Virus record (IMG/VR): IMGVR_UViG_3300045579_000147 | Coordinates: 1-37,671 of that record | Strand: one strand, 5' to 3' | DNA length: 37,671 nucleotides | Origin: a virus | Shown: positions 16,380-37,671 of the stretch, piece after piece | Position numbering within the stretch: position 1 is the stretch's first letter | How the letters are laid out: the number at the start of each line of letters is the position of its first letter | Program-made: the position numbers and the translations under genes | The notes under the pieces: model-generated | What the model was told of the DNA's origin: nothing | What the model saw: the letters and a program-made list of their open reading frames with translations, nothing else | Database searches by the model: none

Positions 16380-18476
16380 ATGCAAACCTCAGAATTCAAA
16401 TCACTTCAGCTGGCCCTGATCGAATCCAGCCTGACCAATCCGCGTAAGACCTTCAACGAAGCCAAGCTGAGCGAACTTAGCATCAGCATTCAGGCCAGCG
16501 GGGTGCATCAGCCCATCCTGGTGCGGCCGCTACCAGCATCGCGCGTGGCAGAGACCAGCATCGATGCCAGCACGGGAAAGCCTCGCAAGGTCAAACCAGC
16601 TTACGAGGTGGTGTGTGGCGAGCGTCGGTACCGGGCCAGCAAGATGGCGGGGTTTGAGAGCATTCCGGCCCTGGTGCGGGATCTGAGCGACAGCCAGGTA
16701 CTGGAGATTCAGATTGTTGAGAACCTCCAGCGCGATGATCTGTCTGAATTGGAGGAGGCCGAGGGTTATGAGGCCTTGATGCAGCACAGCGGCCTGACGG
16801 CTGACCAGGTGGGCGAGAAGATTGGCAAGAGCCGAAGCTATGTGTACGGCAGGCTCAAGCTGCTCGACCTGTGCCAGGAGGCGCGCGGAGGTTTACGCGA
16901 TCGCACCATTGATGCCAGTCGGGCGCTGTTGGTGGCACGCATCCCGGATCACAAATTGCAGATCAAGGCGATGAAGGAGATTCTGAGTGGGGGCAGCTAC
17001 TACACCAATGAACCGCTGTCCTACCGCAGAGCGGCCGAGCATGTGCAGCGCAATTACATGCTCAAGCTCAGTGAGGCGACATTCAAGATCACGGCCGCAG
17101 ACCTTGTGCCAGATGCGGGCAGCTGTAAAACCTGCACCAAGCGCACCGGGCATGACCCCGATCTTTTTAGCGACGTCAAGGGTGCAGATGTCTGTACCGA
17201 TCCTGTGTGTTTTCACAAAAAGGAGGAGGCACACGTCGCGCTGAAAGTCGAGGAGGCCAAGGCCAAGGGCCAGACGGTGATCATTGGCAAAGAGGCGCTG
17301 GAGTTGGCGCAGAACACCTATGGCAACACCAAATTCAAAGGCTACAAGCGCCTGGATTCGGTGGAGGATAGCCCAGCCGATGTTCCCTTGCGAAAACTCA
17401 TTGGCGCTCAAATGAAGGCCCAGGGCATCAAGCCGGTCATGATTGAACACCCCACCAAAAAAGGCGAGATGGTGGAGTGTTTGCCCAATGAAGTAGCTGG
17501 CAAGCTGCTCAAGGCGCTGGAGGGGCAGGCTGCGGCCGCCAAAGAGGTGAGCAAAGAGGTCAAGGCTTTGATGGATGACAAAAAAGCCAAGGCAGAAGCG
17601 AAGGCCAAGGACCAATTCGAGAAACAGTGGCGCGCAGCGCTGCTCCGTGACGCCTGGAGCGAGGTGCGTGACGATGCCGGCATCAAGGCCTTCAACGCCG
17701 AGGTGCATCGCTACCTGGTGGTGCAGGCGGCGCACGGCCTGAGTACCGATAACGCGAGTGCGATCTGCGAAATCCTGAATTTGGGCAAGGTCTCGCCCAT
17801 CTCGGCGGTGGTGGATTTTGCGAAAGAGACGCCCAGCCCGGATGCTTTGCACCTTCTGATCATCATGCAATCCGATTCGGGCGCTTTTCAGTATTCCTTC
17901 CGCGATCAAAAAGCCAATGAGGGGCTGATGCTTGTTGCGGGCAATGTGTTTGGCGATCAATTGGCCAGTGTGATCAAGGAAATCAAGCTCGAAACCAAGG
18001 CCAAGGTTTGGCCAAAGCCCGAAAAATCGCCTTCTGCCAACGGCCCCGCTGCGCGCGCTAAGAAGGGTGCGGGGGGAAAGGGTCCCAAGAAACCTGGACG
18101 CTCCGCTGCGCATTTGTCTGCCGAGGAAGCGACATTAGGCATCGCTGAAGCGATGCAGGGCTTGGAGGGGTCGGCTTCTGCGCCTGAGGGCGCAGTGGCG
18201 CCGACCGTCTCGGCCGAGGCGTGGCCTTTCCCCAAGTCAAAGGAGGATCGGGCAAAGGCCGAAGAGGCCAGCAAGAAAGCCGTGGGGGCGCTTCCGCTTT
18301 ATGACAAGGCGGTGGAGCTTGTCACCAAAGAGCAAAAAGCCAGCAAACGTCTGCTCAAAGAGGGCCTGGGCATTGGCCAGGACAAGGCCCAGGCTTTGCT
18401 GGTGGAGTTGGAGACGAATGGCGTGGTGAGCGCGGTCGACGAATCGCGCAATCGCAGGGTGCTGGTGGCGGCATGA
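16380..18476 (+). CDS. ParB-like protein with C-terminal FtsK-gamma-like domain
   Basis: 698 aa. N-terminal ParB/Spo0J domain: NPRKTF (20-25), GERRYRAS (80-87), ENLQRDDLSELEEAEGY (~114-130), followed by the HTH LTADQVGEKIGKSRSYVYG (~139-157). A Cys cluster (CKTC...CTDPVC, ~250-277) may bind zinc. A long helical, Lys/Ala-rich linker leads to residues ~638-698, where LYDKAVELVTKEQKASKRLL, LGIGQDKAQALLVELETNG and VVSAVDESRNRRVLV match the winged-helix gamma domain of FtsK, which reads GGGNAGGG octamers. No ParA is present. It may organise or segregate the genome, or regulate genes; length far exceeds the usual ~300 aa ParB. Confidence 0.85.
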   Translation: MQTSEFKSLQLALIESSLTNPRKTFNEAKLSELSISIQASGVHQPILVRPLPASRVAETSIDASTGKPRKVKPAYEVVCGERRYRASKMAGFESIPALVRDLSDSQVLEIQIVENLQRDDLSELEEAEGYEALMQHSGLTADQVGEKIGKSRSYVYGRLKLLDLCQEARGGLRDRTIDASRALLVARIPDHKLQIKAMKEILSGGSYYTNEPLSYRRAAEHVQRNYMLKLSEATFKITAADLVPDAGSCKTCTKRTGHDPDLFSDVKGADVCTDPVCFHKKEEAHVALKVEEAKAKGQTVIIGKEALELAQNTYGNTKFKGYKRLDSVEDSPADVPLRKLIGAQMKAQGIKPVMIEHPTKKGEMVECLPNEVAGKLLKALEGQAAAAKEVSKEVKALMDDKKAKAEAKAKDQFEKQWRAALLRDAWSEVRDDAGIKAFNAEVHRYLVVQAAHGLSTDNASAICEILNLGKVSPISAVVDFAKETPSPDALHLLIIMQSDSGAFQYSFRDQKANEGLMLVAGNVFGDQLASVIKEIKLETKAKVWPKPEKSPSANGPAARAKKGAGGKGPKKPGRSAAHLSAEEATLGIAEAMQGLEGSASAPEGAVAPTVSAEAWPFPKSKEDRAKAEEASKKAVGALPLYDKAVELVTKEQKASKRLLKEGLGIGQDKAQALLVELETNGVVSAVDESRNRRVLVAA

Positions 18477-20376: not shown

Positions 20377-22032
20377 TTGACAGGTCTTGTCTACAGCTAC
20401 ACACGCTTCAGTGACCCGCGCCAAGCAGCTGGTCATAGCAGCGAGCGGCAGATGGCCTATGCCGCCAAGTGGGCCGCCGAGCATGGGCTGCTGCTGGATG
20501 ACAAGCTCTCGCTGAGGGATGAAGGCTTATCGGCCTACCACCAGCGGCACATCAAATCGGGGGCGCTGGGAGTCTTCCTGGCTGCCGTGGAGCAGGGACG
20601 AATTCCCCAGGGTTCCGTGCTGGTAGTGGAAGGGCTCGACCGCCTCTCGCGTGCCGAGCCGATTCAGGCGCAGGCCCAACTGGCGCAGATCGTGAACGCC
20701 GGCATCACTGTGGTGACGGCCAGCGACGGCAAGCAGTATAGCCGCGAGCACCTCAAGGCCAACCCCATGGATCTGGTCTATTCCCTCTTGGTCATGATCC
20801 GGGCACATGAGGAGAGCGACACCAAAAGCAAGCGCGTCATTGCGTCGATCCGCAAGCAGTGTGAGGGCTGGATGGCAGGCACCTATCGAGGCATGATCAG
20901 GAATGGCAAAGACCCCCTATGGGTGCTGCGCATCGACAACGAATGGCGACTGATCCCTGACCGGGTGAACGCAGCGCGGGAAGCCATCGCGCTGTACAAG
21001 CGTGGCCATGGTGCCACGGCCATCATCAAGAGGCTGCAGGAGGCCGGCTTATCACTCACGGGTGGTGGGCCGCAAACCCTGCAGATCTACCGGCTTATCA
21101 AGCAGCGGGCGCTGCGCGGCGACAAAGAGCTGGAGATCGACGGCGAGACCTTCCGCCTGCCGGGCTACTACCCGCCCATCCTCTCCGAGAGCGAATGGCT
21201 GGAGCTGGAATCGATCGCCAACGGCCGCGCCAGGCGCCAGGGCAAGGGCGTGGTGCCCCACATCCTCACAGGCCTGGGCATCACGGTGTGCGGCTACTGC
21301 GGCCGCGCCATGGTGGGGCAAAACATCGGCACCCGCCGAAAACATGACAGCGACCCGATCAAAGATGGGTATAGACGCCTGCATTGCACCAGCAACTCGC
21401 ATGGTGGCTGCAGCGTGTGGGGCTCGACGTCCGTGGCCCCTTTTGAGCGGGCACTAATGACCTACTGCTCCGACATCGTGAACCTGCAGGCCTTGTATGG
21501 CGCAGATCGCTCGGCTGGATCGCTGGCAGCACTGACGCACGCCAGGCAGCAGCTGGTCGACGTGGCCACCAAATTGGAGCGACTGACCGATGCCATGCTG
21601 GCCAGCAGTGAAGAAGGTGTGCCGCTGACCTTCGCCAAGCGAGCCCGCGAGCTGGAAGCCGAGCAGCAACAGTGGGAGGCTGCCATCCAAACGGCAGAGC
21701 GCGATCTGTCGGCACAGGCCCGCACCGACATCACCGGCGCGGACGAAGCATGGAAGAGCCTGGTCCAAGGCGTGGAAGCCCAAGACCATGACGCACGCCT
21801 GCAGGCCCGCCAGCTGGTGGCCGATACCTTCGAGCGCATCGTGATCTATCACCGAGGCGTGCGCCCCGGTCCCGAGGGCAAAGGGCCGATGGACATGATG
21901 CTGCTGGCCAAGGGCGGCACAGCCAGGCTGCTGCGCATCGGCCGCGATGGTGAGCTGATCATGGCCGAGAGCCTTGAGCCGCCCCAAAACGAAAAAAAGC
22001 CCTCCCACCCCGCGAGGGATGGGAGGGCTTAA
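20377..22032 (+). CDS. int: Large serine recombinase (integrase)
   Basis: 551 aa. N-terminal resolvase domain: catalytic Ser12 in YSYTRFSDPRQ, then VVEGLDRLSRAEP (~83-95) with the conserved Arg residues. A recombinase domain (~160-270) is followed by a zinc-ribbon: VCGYCGRAM near 303 and LHCTSNSHGGC near 340. A long coiled-coil region (~370-460) then modulates synapsis in this family. The start is TTG 20377 with AAGGA 7 nt upstream. It integrates the phage between attP and a host attB; no separate excisionase (RDF) gene is recognisable. Isolated, transcribed toward the late operon. Confidence 0.92.
   Translation: MTGLVYSYTRFSDPRQAAGHSSERQMAYAAKWAAEHGLLLDDKLSLRDEGLSAYHQRHIKSGALGVFLAAVEQGRIPQGSVLVVEGLDRLSRAEPIQAQAQLAQIVNAGITVVTASDGKQYSREHLKANPMDLVYSLLVMIRAHEESDTKSKRVIASIRKQCEGWMAGTYRGMIRNGKDPLWVLRIDNEWRLIPDRVNAAREAIALYKRGHGATAIIKRLQEAGLSLTGGGPQTLQIYRLIKQRALRGDKELEIDGETFRLPGYYPPILSESEWLELESIANGRARRQGKGVVPHILTGLGITVCGYCGRAMVGQNIGTRRKHDSDPIKDGYRRLHCTSNSHGGCSVWGSTSVAPFERALMTYCSDIVNLQALYGADRSAGSLAALTHARQQLVDVATKLERLTDAMLASSEEGVPLTFAKRARELEAEQQQWEAAIQTAERDLSAQARTDITGADEAWKSLVQGVEAQDHDARLQARQLVADTFERIVIYHRGVRPGPEGKGPMDMMLLAKGGTARLLRIGRDGELIMAESLEPPQNEKKPSHPARDGRA
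21990..22030. terminator. Bidirectional terminator overlapping the integrase 3' end
   Basis: An 11-bp perfect stem (21997-22007 with 22020-22030) lies inside the last codons of int. Read on the minus strand it is followed by TTTTTTT, so it terminates the leftward late operon after the methylase gene. On the plus strand it may also end int mRNA. Confidence 0.8.
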
Positions 22033-22077: not shown

Positions 22078-22869
22078 TTAAAACAATCCGGCTGGCTCGG
22101 CCTGCATGTCCCAGCTGTAGATCAGCAGTTCCATGCGATCAACACCTTGGCCGCCGCCCACGGTGTATTTGATCGGCACCTCTTCAAAATGCAGTCCGGC
22201 AAAACATTCGCGGATCTGCGGATGGTCATTGATGCTCAGTAGCGCTTTGCCTTTGATCTCGCGCATCATCTTGGCCATGGCCAGGTATTCCTCAAATGGA
22301 AACGGCACGCCATAGCCTTCGGTCTCCCAATACGGAGGGTCAAGATAAAAGAAGGAGTGCGGCCGGTCGTATCGACGCATGCACTCTTTCCAATCCAGCC
22401 TCTCAATATAGGCCCCATGCAGGCGCAAATGCGCTGTGCTCAGATCCTCCTCTAGGCGCAGCAGATTGACGGTGGGAGATGGCGCCGTTGTCGCCGTGCC
22501 CCAGCTTTGCCCTTGCACGCGTCCACCAAACGCCTGGTGCTGCAAATAGTAGAAGCGGGCTGCTCGCTGGATGTCAGTGAGCGTTTCGGGTGGCGTGTCT
22601 TGCGTCCACCTGAAAATCTCTCGACTGCTCAGGGCCCACTTGAATTGCCGGACAAACTCTTCCAGGTGGCTTTTGACCACCCGATAGAGATTCACCACGT
22701 CGCCATTGATGTCGTTGATAACCTCGACCTCGGCGGGCTGTCTTAAAAAATACAGCGCTGCGCCGCCGGCAAAAACCTCGACATAGCAGCTGTGAGGCGG
22801 GAAGCGACGGAGAATGATGTCAGCCAGACGGCGTTTGCCGCCCAGCCATGGGATGATGGGTGATGCCAT
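22078..22869 (-). CDS. dam: DNA adenine methylase, D12 class
   Basis: 263 aa. Motif X/I region: WLGGKRRL (8-15) and EVFAGGAALYF (31-41) for S-adenosylmethionine binding; catalytic DPPY at 177-180; KGKALLSINDHPQIRECF follows as in the Dam family. It transfers a methyl group to N6 of adenine, most likely in GATC, protecting phage DNA or mimicking host marking. AGGAG lies 9 nt before ATG. Last gene of the late operon, just before the bidirectional terminator. Confidence 0.9.
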   Translation of the reverse strand: MASPIIPWLGGKRRLADIILRRFPPHSCYVEVFAGGAALYFLRQPAEVEVINDINGDVVNLYRVVKSHLEEFVRQFKWALSSREIFRWTQDTPPETLTDIQRAARFYYLQHQAFGGRVQGQSWGTATTAPSPTVNLLRLEEDLSTAHLRLHGAYIERLDWKECMRRYDRPHSFFYLDPPYWETEGYGVPFPFEEYLAMAKMMREIKGKALLSINDHPQIRECFAGLHFEEVPIKYTVGGGQGVDRMELLIYSWDMQAEPAGLF

Positions 22870-24632: not shown

Positions 24633-25055
24633 TTACAGGCCCAGTTTGGCTTTTTCCGATCGCCCCCAGGAACGGCACTCTTCGACATAGGCGTTCCAGG
24701 CGCTCGTTTCATCACTGGGAGCGATTCGCAGCAGCTTAATTTCATCGTCAACGGAATAACGGATTCGGATCTGTTCGACAACCTGGCGATCAATCAATTG
24801 CACCAAAGGACTTGCTTGGCGAATGGCATCACGCAATCCGTTCGGCAAAGGTACGGGCAGCGTTTCGATGCTGGCCACAATCTCGGCGGGTTGATCGGCG
24901 GGCAGCTTGGCTTCTCCAGGCAGGCTCACATAGGTCTTGCCATCAATGGTCGCTAATTCAGTTCCGAGACGTTGTCGATTTTCGCCCTCGGGCAGCAGCA
25001 GTTCTTTGGTTGTCACTGCATCGATAAACTTTCGGTAGGAGACAATAGAGGTCAT
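24633..25055 (-). CDS. Hypothetical protein between RT and holin (tail-fibre accessory?)
   Basis: 140 aa. AAAGGAAAA upstream gives ATG 25055 a strong ribosome binding site. The C-terminus IRYSVDDEIKLLRIAPSDET followed by SAWNAYVEECRSWG resembles the R-D-x-L-L...W-x-x-Y/W-x-x-x-L-R end of tail-fibre assembly chaperones; weak, by eye. The first 98 bp overlap the RT 3' end in another frame. It could be a fibre chaperone for the DGR target, which would fit its place. Confidence 0.6.
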   Translation of the reverse strand: MTSIVSYRKFIDAVTTKELLLPEGENRQRLGTELATIDGKTYVSLPGEAKLPADQPAEIVASIETLPVPLPNGLRDAIRQASPLVQLIDRQVVEQIRIRYSVDDEIKLLRIAPSDETSAWNAYVEECRSWGRSEKAKLGL

Positions 25056-26019
25056 GGTTTTTTTCCTTTACGGTTGAGACAAGATGTTTGAGGCTGCATG
25101 TATTTCGGGCGTGGCCCAAAATTGAAGTGATCGGCGCAAGATTGCCTTGGCGTACTGCCCGACCGAATTTGAAAAGGCTGTGCTTACGGATGTATCTCCG
25201 TGTTCTCCAGGTTCGATATCCGACAAAATTCAGGCCGCGCTGCACTGGATGAATGCTGTATCTGGAAAGCTCAAGATGCAGTCTCAAACTGAGAAATTCC
25301 TTGATCTTGACAAGCGCATTCAAGCACTCTGTTTTGCTCCATCCAAAGACAACAAAATCATCCACATAGCGGCAGTAAAAATGCGCGTTTAATTCGCGCT
25401 TCATGAAATGGTCTAGCGGGCTCATATAAATCAGCGCGTAAAGCTGACTGAGCAAGTTTCCAATTGGGATCCCAAGAGGCTCCGCTTTGGGATGTCCATA
25501 CTCGGCAAACTGAAGCATGACGCCAACGAAACGGCGATCTTTGATTCGGCGCTCAATCAGTACGCGCAAAATCGATCTGTCGATTCGGTAGAAAAACTTT
25601 CTGATATCCAGCTTCATCACACAGGTTTTCGGATCTACTGACCTCAGTGAGGCTTGGGCATAGTCGGCGGCCTTGTGAGTTCCTTTGCCGTGTCGGCAGG
25701 CAAAGGATTGGTCGATGAACCCTGAATTGAAGATGGGATACACCAGTCGATAAATTGCATGCTGCACGACCAGGTCGCGAAATGCGGGCGCGTAAATAAT
25801 CCGTTTCTTGGGCTCATACACATGAAACTCAATGTATGGCATGGGCTTGTATATGCCCTGATTGAGCTCGTCATACAAAGCATCAAGATTGCTGGCCAGG
25901 CGGCGAGAAAATTCAAGGCAGGCCCGCTTTTTCATCTTCCCATGGCTGGCATCAATCCATGCCTGATGCAGGGATTCACGGCTGAAAGCCTGATCGAACA
26001 AATTGCCAATGCGCTTCAA
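24958..26019 (-). CDS. rt: DGR reverse transcriptase
   Basis: 353 aa. RT palm motifs in order: KLDIRKFF (136-143) with the first catalytic Asp, GIPIGNLLSQ (183-192), which carries the (I/V/L)GxxxSQ signature of DGR enzymes in place of the QGxxxSP of other RTs, and YVDD (218-221). Fingers at ~60-120; a basic thumb follows (RTWRTRRYIRKHSLFKFGR). The start is TTG 26019 with GGGGG 8 nt before. The protein copies TR RNA into cDNA with errors at adenines, working with Avd. C-terminal 32 codons overlap the next gene. Confidence 0.93.
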   Translation of the reverse strand: MKRIGNLFDQAFSRESLHQAWIDASHGKMKKRACLEFSRRLASNLDALYDELNQGIYKPMPYIEFHVYEPKKRIIYAPAFRDLVVQHAIYRLVYPIFNSGFIDQSFACRHGKGTHKAADYAQASLRSVDPKTCVMKLDIRKFFYRIDRSILRVLIERRIKDRRFVGVMLQFAEYGHPKAEPLGIPIGNLLSQLYALIYMSPLDHFMKRELNAHFYCRYVDDFVVFGWSKTECLNALVKIKEFLSLRLHLELSRYSIHPVQRGLNFVGYRTWRTRRYIRKHSLFKFGRAVRQGNLAPITSILGHARNTCSLKHLVSTVKEKNHDLYCLLPKVYRCSDNQRTAAARGRKSTTSRN

Positions 26020-26164
26020 GATGCAACCCCCAGGCTTTCGACGGCCATTTGGCCGCTACTAGGAAAGAGGTGTGCGGCAGATTTCGCGCTGGGTTGCCCC
26101 AATCGCGGGAAATCGTCTCCCTTGGATCCACCATCCACTTGCGTGGTACGAGGTGATTCCGAGT

Positions 26165-26279
26165 CCGAGCGGAACCCGTAGTTATCGTTCGAGTTCGCCC
26201 GCGAATTGTTCAGATTCAACGACCAGACACCCGCATTCGACGAGTTGTCCCAGTTGCCGCCACAATTCGGACACATGTC
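26165..26279 (-). repeat. DGR template repeat (TR)
   Basis: 115 bp matching VR (26764-26878) with 12 differences, all at adenines of the minus (coding) strand of TR, out of 25 adenines present. Its translation would read DMCPNCGGNWDNSSNAGVWS and on, with AAC/AAT codons placed where the target varies. It lies between avd and RT; the avd stop codon overlaps its first two bases. The TR RNA plus flanks (26020-26300) is the template RNA. A 14-nt adenine-free 3' end (26178-26165) matches VR exactly. Confidence 0.95.
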
Positions 26280-26733
26280 AAGACGCCTCCCCGGTTGCCC
26301 CGGCCATCCGGGTTGCCTTTTCTGGCTTTGATGGCGTGGCCTCACGCTCACGCTCAAACATGAGCCAGCCACCGATCATTCGGCCCAGCTCATCAACCAT
26401 GCGGCTGATTGCCATGTACCGATGCTCAGCCATGCCCATGGGCTTGGTCTTGGCCTGTTCGCCATCCTTGAAGCTGAAATAACCCAGCTCAAACGCCAAT
26501 CGGATGAACATGCGCAATTGCTCATGCGCAATGTCCAGATTCGTGAGCGTGGTTTTCTTGTGATAGCGCTTTTGAGCCTCCACGATGAGGCCGTAGCACT
26601 CATACGCCTTGCGCCTGATTTCCTGCGCAAGCCCGTATTTTTCGTGCTTCGGAAAGTGGTTCAAATACAGGTTCATTTGCTTGGCAAATTCCGTGAATTT
26701 GGCATCCAGCTTTGCTTCATCATGAAGGCCCAT
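26278..26733 (-). CDS. avd: Avd, accessory variability determinant
   Basis: 151 aa, all-helical with basic faces (KHEKYGLAQEIRRKAYECYG, IVEAQKRYHKKTTLTNLDIA, HEQLRMFIRLAFELGYFS, AEHRYMAISRMVDELGRMIG): the four-helix-bundle pattern of Avd, which forms a pentamer, binds nucleic acid and RT, and is required for cDNA synthesis in the Bordetella DGR. It lies 16 nt after the target stop and ends at the TR boundary. Length is slightly above the usual ~125 aa because of a Thr/Ala-rich tail. No strong Shine-Dalgarno, so it may be translated by coupling. Confidence 0.9.
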   Translation of the reverse strand: MGLHDEAKLDAKFTEFAKQMNLYLNHFPKHEKYGLAQEIRRKAYECYGLIVEAQKRYHKKTTLTNLDIAHEQLRMFIRLAFELGYFSFKDGEQAKTKPMGMAEHRYMAISRMVDELGRMIGGWLMFEREREATPSKPEKATRMAGATGEAS

Positions 26734-26749
26734 CGCTATCGCTCAGGCC

Positions 26750-28117
26750 TCAAAGATACAAGGCCGAGCGGAACCCGCAGTAACCGCTCGAGGTCGCCCG
26801 CGAAACGTTCAGATTCAACGACCAGACACCCGCATCCGACGAGTTGTCCCAGCCGCCGCCACAACCCGGACACATGTCCGCTGTGCTGTAGTCATACAGG
26901 ATGTCATTGCCAAACTGGTTGGAGCCTCCAGAGACCAGGGGGATGCCCGCCGCAGTCATTTGCCAAGCGGTGCCACTGGTGGCATTGCTCAGCACTTGGC
27001 TTGCGCTGCCCATGGTGATGGCGCGGTCACTGAAGTTGACGGCGTAGCCGGTAAAGCTGTTCATGACACCCAAATCGTCATACAGGGCAGCCAGGCCGGT
27101 TGCGCCCCAAAGATCGGTCGCCAGCGAATTGCCGCCCGTGACGGCTGCCATGTTGGCCGAGGTCTTGAGGACATAGAAGCGGCCCGTTGATGGATCGCTT
27201 GCGCTTTGCGTCAGGCCGGGGGTGATTTCCCAAACAATGCCGTTGAGGTCAACCACGCCGCACATTTGGCCGTTGTGCGCGGTTTTCGCCATGAAGTTGG
27301 CCGATCCGGTTTTGCCACAGTTGTACGTTCCGTTGCCATCGTTGACATAGGCAATGGTGGCGTCTTGCGCATCGCCAAGGGCGTTGTTGTTGCAACCCTT
27401 GGGGAAGTTGGTGGAGCCGCTTGAGTACCAGGCATTGAATGTGGTGGAGGTGCTGGCACTGCCATGGGCGGTGGACAGCAAGGCCAGCATTTTGAAAATG
27501 AAGATGCTGGAGCAAAAGAAGTTTGATCCACGGGTTTTCGCGGCTGCAATGGCTCCATAGAAAGCGTTGGCCGGTGCGCCGGTCAGGCTCGAAAACGCTG
27601 TGGCCGCAATGGAGCCGCGCTGCGCACTGGACAGCACGATGCCGTTTTTGAGCGAGCTGGCAACACCGCTGTTGTTCGAGCAAAGGTACTTGTCAACGAA
27701 AACACCAGGGCGGATGGTGCCGTTGTTGTAGAAGGCGCGGTGCAGCGCATAACCAGCGGCATTGGCATCGGCCACGCTGGCATAAGTGGCAAATGGCTTG
27801 ACATCAATCACGTTGATGGCGAGGCCGTTTGCGCCGGTGCCGACCTTGTAATAAAAGGCGGGCACGTACACCATGACCGAGCCATCGGTGTAGACATAGT
27901 TGCCGTAATTTTGGCTGGCCGGGTCTTCGGTGCCATACAGTTTTGCCATGCCAGACGGCAGCTCAGGCGCGATGCCAACGCCGAAGCCTTGCTGGCCTGG
28001 AACACCAATGTTGTTGACGATGCCAGCGCCACCGGCTGAGCCAATGCGGATGCCATAAGGGAAGTTGACGGGTGAACCGTCCGGGGTGCGGACTTCGCGT
28101 GCGATTAAGTTGCTCAT
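26750..28117 (-). CDS. DGR target: tail-fibre/receptor-binding protein with C-type-lectin-like end
   Basis: 455 aa. The N-terminus (MSNLIAREVRTPDGSPVNFPYGIRI) probably docks to the tail. The body is Gly/Ser/Asn-rich and, from ~residue 80 (MVYVPAFYYKVG), follows the formylglycine-enzyme/C-type-lectin layout used by most DGR targets, with VDLNGIVWEITPGL and ending in the GVWSLNLNVSR...YCGFRS motif. VR covers residues ~414-451; nine residues there differ from TR-encoded Asn, Asp or Tyr. It presents the diversified surface that likely binds host receptors. ATGA overlap with the upstream stalk gene. Confidence 0.9.
   Translation of the reverse strand: MSNLIAREVRTPDGSPVNFPYGIRIGSAGGAGIVNNIGVPGQQGFGVGIAPELPSGMAKLYGTEDPASQNYGNYVYTDGSVMVYVPAFYYKVGTGANGLAINVIDVKPFATYASVADANAAGYALHRAFYNNGTIRPGVFVDKYLCSNNSGVASSLKNGIVLSSAQRGSIAATAFSSLTGAPANAFYGAIAAAKTRGSNFFCSSIFIFKMLALLSTAHGSASTSTTFNAWYSSGSTNFPKGCNNNALGDAQDATIAYVNDGNGTYNCGKTGSANFMAKTAHNGQMCGVVDLNGIVWEITPGLTQSASDPSTGRFYVLKTSANMAAVTGGNSLATDLWGATGLAALYDDLGVMNSFTGYAVNFSDRAITMGSASQVLSNATSGTAWQMTAAGIPLVSGGSNQFGNDILYDYSTADMCPGCGGGWDNSSDAGVWSLNLNVSRATSSGYCGFRSALYL
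26764..26878 (-). repeat. DGR variable repeat (VR)
   Basis: 3' end of the target gene. Substitutions relative to TR: nine A-to-G, two A-to-T and one A-to-C on the coding strand, and none at any other base. Amino-acid changes: N to G, N to G, N to D, N to V, N to T, N to S, D to G, N to Y, Y to C. The 14-nt identical GC-rich 3' block is the likely initiation-of-mutagenic-homing core. Confidence 0.95.
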
Positions 28118-37272: not shown

Positions 37273-37594
37273 GCTTTTTCAGACTCATGGCATAAGCCAC
37301 GGCTTCTTTGTTGTCATCAATGACGCCATCAGCTTTGAGTTGTTTCAACTCGGTGTTGGGGATGTCTGCCACATCGTTGCAGGCGCCATATGCACAGTCT
37401 TGCAAAAGGCGTGCGCGAGTGGATTTGACTTTGCTTGCGGGCGGATCTTCGGCAAGTTTTGCCATGCCGTTGGTGAGCAGCAGTTCAGCCTGGTCAGACG
37501 GAACTTCAAAAGCGGCGCCTTCGGCAACTTCTGCAGTGATTGCAGGCACGGTGCCGATTGCAATCAGAACTAGAGCAATGAGTTTGGTATTCAT
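37262..37594 (-). CDS. Small head-module protein with two similar halves
   Basis: 110 aa. Two segments share one layout: residues ~4-47 (LIALVLIAIG... GAAFEVPSDQAELLLTNGMA) and ~58-100 (RARLLQDCAYGACNDVADIP, NTELKQLKADGVIDDNKEAV), as if duplicated from a small module found after capsid genes in other phages. The hydrophobic start could be mistaken for a signal peptide. It follows the capsid gene across the circle junction; bases 1-50 of the window repeat its 5' end. Possible capsid decoration or joining role. Confidence 0.72.
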   Translation of the reverse strand: MNTKLIALVLIAIGTVPAITAEVAEGAAFEVPSDQAELLLTNGMAKLAEDPPASKVKSTRARLLQDCAYGACNDVADIPNTELKQLKADGVIDDNKEAVAYAMSLKKPAA

Positions 37595-37671
37595 ATTGAC
37601 CTCGGTTTAGGTTGAAATCCGTCCACTCAGACTAAGCCGAGTGGACGGTGCTTTGCTGACCTGAAAATCAG
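37545..37671. repeat. Right copy of 127-bp terminal direct repeat
   Basis: Exact copy of bases 1-127; marks where the circle was opened. Confidence 0.9.

Follow-up and report, generated by a model that had tools for sequence, protein, structure and literature searches.

The template repeat (TR) of a diversity-generating retroelement (DGR) is usually treated as intergenic. A survey of thousands of DGRs found broad activity and described the TR as 'in most cases intergenic' (Roux et al., PMC8144416), and TRs that overlap the ORF of the reverse transcriptase (RT) are already known from DiGReF group 3 (PMC3521204). In the BPP-1 element, in which mtd is followed by avd, TR and brt, avd contains at its 3′ end a motif that stops reverse transcription (PMC12875486). 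A BPP-1 TR carrying introduced stop codons functions in E. coli (PMC12875486), and translation of TR is therefore no general requirement of DGRs. Downstream of the variable repeat (VR), Guo et al. described a hairpin with a 4-nt GRNA loop and perfect, GC-rich stems of 7–10 bp (PMC3240598).

We analysed a 37,671-nt stretch of viral DNA (the window), which is the entire virus record and carries a 127-bp direct terminal repeat (1–127 and 37545–37671). It encodes a major head protein, head protease, portal, terminase subunits, tape measure and tail proteins, together with a serine integrase (20377–22032, plus strand) and a Q-like antiterminator. This head and tail gene set, combined with the integrase and the antiterminator, identifies the window as a temperate tailed phage, and it is a complete-looking siphophage genome. 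Relatives of its DGR target gene in bacterial genomes were found mostly in Beta- and Gammaproteobacteria; the host of the window phage may differ. We found no close DNA relative of the DGR region among named phages, and an Rfam search returned no match.

The window DGR is of a well-known cassette type, one more among the thousands catalogued. An earlier note on this DNA had placed the target gene with its VR, avd, TR and RT in that order on one strand, and the positions of ORFs and repeats bore this out, with all parts on the minus strand. This gene order is shared with BPP-1 and with Pseudomonas phage Bise. The RT (24958–26019, minus strand; 353 aa, TTG start) matched phrog_1423 (E = 4e-95) and RVT_1 (E = 4.5e-18), and the motifs that the note had reported, IGNLLSQ and YVDD, are both present and fit the DGR-type patterns [I/V/L]GxxxSQ and YxDD. 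It is 55% identical to the RT of Bise, the closest among named phages, and 41% identical to Brt, the YxDD RT of BPP-1. The accessory variability determinant gene, avd (26278–26733, minus strand; 151 aa), was recognized by NCBIfam DivGenRetAVD (81.9 bits, with a curated cut-off of 80), Pfam bAvd (E = 2e-18) and phrog_3206. BPP-1 likewise has an Avd and a TR that begins at the avd stop codon.

An ungapped repeat search returned a single 118-nt direct repeat pair, 89% identical at an offset of 599 nt, with no other repeat in the DGR region approaching it in length. Its members are TR (26162–26279, minus strand), which contains 26 adenines, and VR (26761–26878, minus strand), which lies at the C-terminal end of the target and terminates a few codons before the target stop. 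The two differ at 13 of 118 positions, all of them coding-strand adenines of TR (13 of 26), with nine changes to G, two to T and two to C. The earlier count of 12 differences over 115 nt, at 12 of 25 adenines (TR 26165–26279, VR 26764–26878), is nevertheless the right mutagenic count: the 13th mismatch, at 26164/26763 (GAC in TR, GCC in VR), is a fixed difference, shared by 105 of 107 related pairs, and therefore marks the 3′ boundary of homology, so omitting it was correct. Across the 107 TR/VR pairs of the family, 1610 of 1678 mismatches faced TR adenines, which occupy only 2866 of 12358 TR positions; this excludes chance as the source of the adenine bias. AAC and AAT codons showed differing substitution spectra, in which selection and shared ancestry are not separated. 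A search of both strands of the window genome revealed no second VR or further copy of the repeat.

The target (26750–28117, minus strand; 455 aa) is a putative tail receptor-binding protein with a C-terminal C-type-lectin (FGE-like) domain. Its ORF matched phrog_5302 (tail; E = 4e-4), and neither Pfam nor a single-sequence search of the PDB gave a match. An AlphaFold model built from a 52-sequence alignment reached a pLDDT of 84.4; an earlier run with 21 sequences (pLDDT 50.6) was discarded. The best solved match to this confident model in Foldseek was the DGR variable protein TaqVP of Thermus aquaticus (5vf4, PMC6328139; E = 1.2e-14 over 433 columns), yet at 16% sequence identity, and weaker matches to Mtd variants followed at about 2e-3 (1yu0, E = 1.7e-3). 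A profile search with the target also picked up 5vf4 (E = 1.1e-6). The lectin-like C-terminal domain that had been proposed from the DNA alone is thus supported by the predicted fold, strongly by TaqVP and less so by Mtd, and a CLec-fold target is a further likeness to BPP-1.

At the 3′ end of VR, the A-free stretch GGGTTCCGCTCGG (26764–26776, minus strand) is a putative IMH, assigned by position; it directly precedes the fixed GAC/GCC boundary. A predicted DNA hairpin (26727–26749, minus strand; GGCC-TGA-GC, a GATA loop, then GC-GAT-GGGCC, with tandem G.A mismatches) extends from the stop codon of the target to the start codon of avd and places its loop 20 nt beyond VR. The earlier note did not mention this hairpin. 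A GRNA loop closed by two GC base pairs was present 18–31 nt past VR in 56 of 56 distinct relatives, and the stem is broken by tandem G.A mismatches in 36 of the 56, the window among them. The window loop obeys the GRNA rule, and BPP-1 also has a GRNA-loop hairpin after VR. However, the BPP-1 stem is perfect and GC-rich, whereas the window stem fits the published description (PMC3240598) in an interrupted form only.

Between avd and the RT gene, we observed a further reading frame, the TR-ORF (26016–26276, minus strand; 86 aa), which the earlier note had missed. It begins with an ATG one base past the avd stop, crosses TR and the 142-nt TR–RT spacer (26020–26161, minus strand; the BPP-1 spacer is 144 nt) and ends in a TGA that overlaps the RT start within TTGA (26019–26016). 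The frame through TR is the one in which VR is read in the target. A Shine-Dalgarno-like GGGGAGG (26286–26292, minus strand) lies 9 nt before the ATG, within the 3′ end of avd.

The TR frame was open from the avd stop to the RT start in 70 of 74 loci of the window's RT clade, and the exact 4-nt overlap between TR-ORF and RT was present in 67 of the 74; after clustering at 85% RT identity, 47 of 54 clusters had it. Among 74 distinct family spacers, stops occupied 3 of 3558 codons in the TR frame, compared with 68 of 3556 and 118 of 3555 in the other two; 71 of the 74 spacers were stop-free in the TR frame, as against 28 and 8 in the other frames and 20% of shuffles. When mapped on an RT tree, spacer length had been altered at least 33 times, but no more than 4 phase changes were counted (P about 1e-10). 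The tree-based count relied on net length and phase because gaps in low-identity spacers split unreliably; in pairwise spacer alignments, internal gap lengths showed no mod-3 excess (62/58/50). The avd/TR junction had the form stop-N-ATG in 72 of 74 distinct loci, and 31 of these 72 ATGs fall outside the TR/VR homology, which indicates that the TR-ORF ATG is not just copied from the target. The Shine-Dalgarno energy ahead of this ATG had a median of -7.7, compared with -1.6 at random sites.

We sampled other DGR clades, comprising relatives of BPP-1, BalMu, VP58.5 and Bise, in the same way as the window's RT clade. BPP-1 differs from the window in that its TR frame ends about 30 nt short of brt and its avd/TR junction has no ATG. 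The TR frame shuts before RT in 28 of 38 BPP-1-clade loci and in 33 of 39 BalMu-clade loci, and the stop-N-ATG junction was seen in 0 of 38 and 1 of 39, respectively. Because these clades mostly lack an open TR cistron, the pattern is lineage-specific and not forced by DGR mechanics. Unlike a BPP-1-type cassette with TR outside any conserved frame, the window has its TR within one. In Bise itself a stop lies in the TR frame 120 nt ahead of RT, and the Bise clade is mixed, with 11 of 26 loci closing at RT and 15 of 26 having the stop-N-ATG junction, as in the window. Vibrio phage VP58.5 and VHML-type DGRs resemble the window in having TR in an open frame that leads into RT. In 28 of 47 VP58.5-clade loci, however, TR lies in frame inside the RT ORF, whereas in the window it occupies a cistron of its own that overlaps RT by 4 nt.

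We consider it likely that the DGR of this temperate tailed phage is intact and probably active, and that its TR lies inside a small, translated cistron leading to RT. Rather unlikely, in our judgement, is an ordinary DGR with a non-coding TR and spacer, whose open frame would be due to common descent, base composition or constraint on the RNA. Such a DGR would be consistent with the spacer, which contains the conserved RNA motifs AAGGGAG, GCGAAATC, GTAG and CGAA and has no third-position bias (substitutions by codon position 201/228/210, compared with 1080/821/2887 in RT). It would also fit the function of engineered BPP-1 with stops in TR (PMC12875486) and the absence of the feature from most BPP-1 and BalMu relatives. 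By contrast, RNA constraint does not account for a single stop-free frame out of three, for the preservation of phase despite at least 33 changes in length, for the 4-nt overlap in 47 of 54 RT clusters or for an ATG outside the TR/VR homology. The peptide itself shows no conservation and, with no codon-position bias in the spacer, is not under amino-acid selection; the frame is most simply explained by ribosomes passing along it. The spacer gave a weak consensus fold (-9.3 kcal/mol), which we left out of the evidence. Both GGGGAGG and the TTRACATG junction may be RNA-level signals, GGGGAGG perhaps as an RT-termination motif (PMC12875486).

The frame, its start and the overlap are established by conservation, and from them we infer that translation through TR is coupled to RT synthesis. 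A ribosome ending avd would start again at the ATG that lies one base further on, read through TR and the spacer, terminate in the 4-nt overlap and reinitiate on RT; termination–reinitiation at such overlaps is reported as established in bacteria (PMC6728339). The likely role of the TR cistron would be to couple RT synthesis to translation of avd and TR. About half of the RT genes have an SD-like site of their own, and the coupling therefore need not be obligatory. RT and Avd would copy the TR RNA into cDNA, misincorporating opposite adenines, and the gene for the lectin-domain, putative receptor-binding protein would receive this cDNA in place of VR at its 3′ end. The A-free 3′ stretch and the hairpin after VR would guide this replacement, if the route is that of BPP-1. 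We speculate that translation and reverse transcription, and thus ribosomes and RT–Avd, compete for the same RNA. It is possible, and we put it forward tentatively, that the template RNA is a translated cistron such that RT synthesis depends on translating an RNA from which RT and Avd must clear the ribosomes before they can copy it.

As for the activity of the cassette, each part needed in BPP-1 is present and unbroken: RT, Avd, TR, VR, the putative IMH and the predicted hairpin were all found without lesion, in agreement with the earlier statement that every required part is intact. The window and its nearest relative (L002) are 97.0% identical in the target body, 98.0% in avd, 99.2% in TR, 97.2% in the spacer and 85.6% in VR, and 16 of 17 differences between the two VRs are at the 26 TR adenines (Fisher 3.5e-12). 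Family contigs that are 100% identical over 5–11 kb differed at 10–13 VR sites, all facing TR adenines; in near-identical pairs these changes numbered 12 of 12 (L094/L143), 10 of 10 (L094/L095) and 13 of 13 (L098/L100). The earlier note had suggested looking in sequencing reads for variation limited to TR adenines; here it is seen between natural genomes. This comparison shows apparent DGR activity in the family and in the recent ancestry of the window, and VR-only divergence at TR adenines among close relatives supports the claim that the element is probably active. That the DGR of the window phage itself is inactive or silent seems to us very unlikely. Its RT has a TTG start, and its RT DNA is only 81% identical to that of L002 even though avd and target are 97–98% identical; yet TTG starts for RT also occur in relatives (12 of 74 loci), no part has a lesion, and template-adenine sites of VR have changed after the window and L002 diverged.

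We give scarcely any credence to the idea that the TR-ORF encodes a functional peptide, which would be a basic-tailed fragment of unmutated lectin. This idea would agree with the conserved start and length and with the annotation of the equivalent ORF of Aeromonas phage phiWae15 as a hypothetical protein, but we rejected it on the lack of third-position bias in the spacer (201/228/210), and it fits poorly with sub-clades that appear to read a shared spacer RNA motif in differing frames, giving unrelated peptides.

Our search of the open full-text literature turned up no description of a TR cistron that is translated and coupled to RT. The statistics show selection, in the window's RT clade, for a frame kept open and in phase through the template into RT. 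To our knowledge, the balance between RT production and template use in DGRs has been little studied. The clade holds natural, near-identical phages that differ in VR alone and is therefore a good system for DGR activity outside Bordetella, and the window lineage would make this balance directly testable. If RT synthesis does depend on translation of the template, the lineage would have an inbuilt switch, or negative feedback, linking production of the mutator to use of its template.

The window ends in an exact direct terminal repeat of 127 bp (positions 1–127 and 37545–37671), which suggests that the genome is complete and either circular or circularly permuted, at about 37.5 kb. Its other genes include a plus-strand gene (16380–18476) for a 698-aa protein with ParB N-terminal, HTH and C-terminal FtsK gamma domains. 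FtsK gamma is a DNA-orienting domain, and its fusion to ParB is unusual. Downstream of the lysis region lies a minus-strand gene for a D12-class adenine DNA methyltransferase (22078–22869); a DNA adenine methylase adjoins the DGR of Bise, the Pseudomonas phage whose RT is the closest in a named phage.

When compared with its nearest relative (L002), the window shows 97–99% DNA identity in avd, TR and the target body, whereas the RT gene (24958–26019, minus strand) is just 81% identical. This disparity between the two sequences suggests that the phages recombined within or near the RT gene.

Across the 107 family TR/VR pairs (L002–L148), 98% of substitutions at TR adenines with G as the next base were to G. 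AAC and AAT codons had unlike substitution spectra while encoding the same residues, a difference that may stem from selection or from ancestry.

We also found that the TR frame continues in frame into RT at three related loci (L145, L157 and L159), where, judging from these reading frames, the TR would belong to a single RT polypeptide. Among 38 loci of the BPP-1 clade, including phage BPP-1 (L152), the RT frame itself is open across the entire TR in 23, with no obvious start codon for this open frame in the clade's loci. This openness may reflect high GC or another route to the same coupling.
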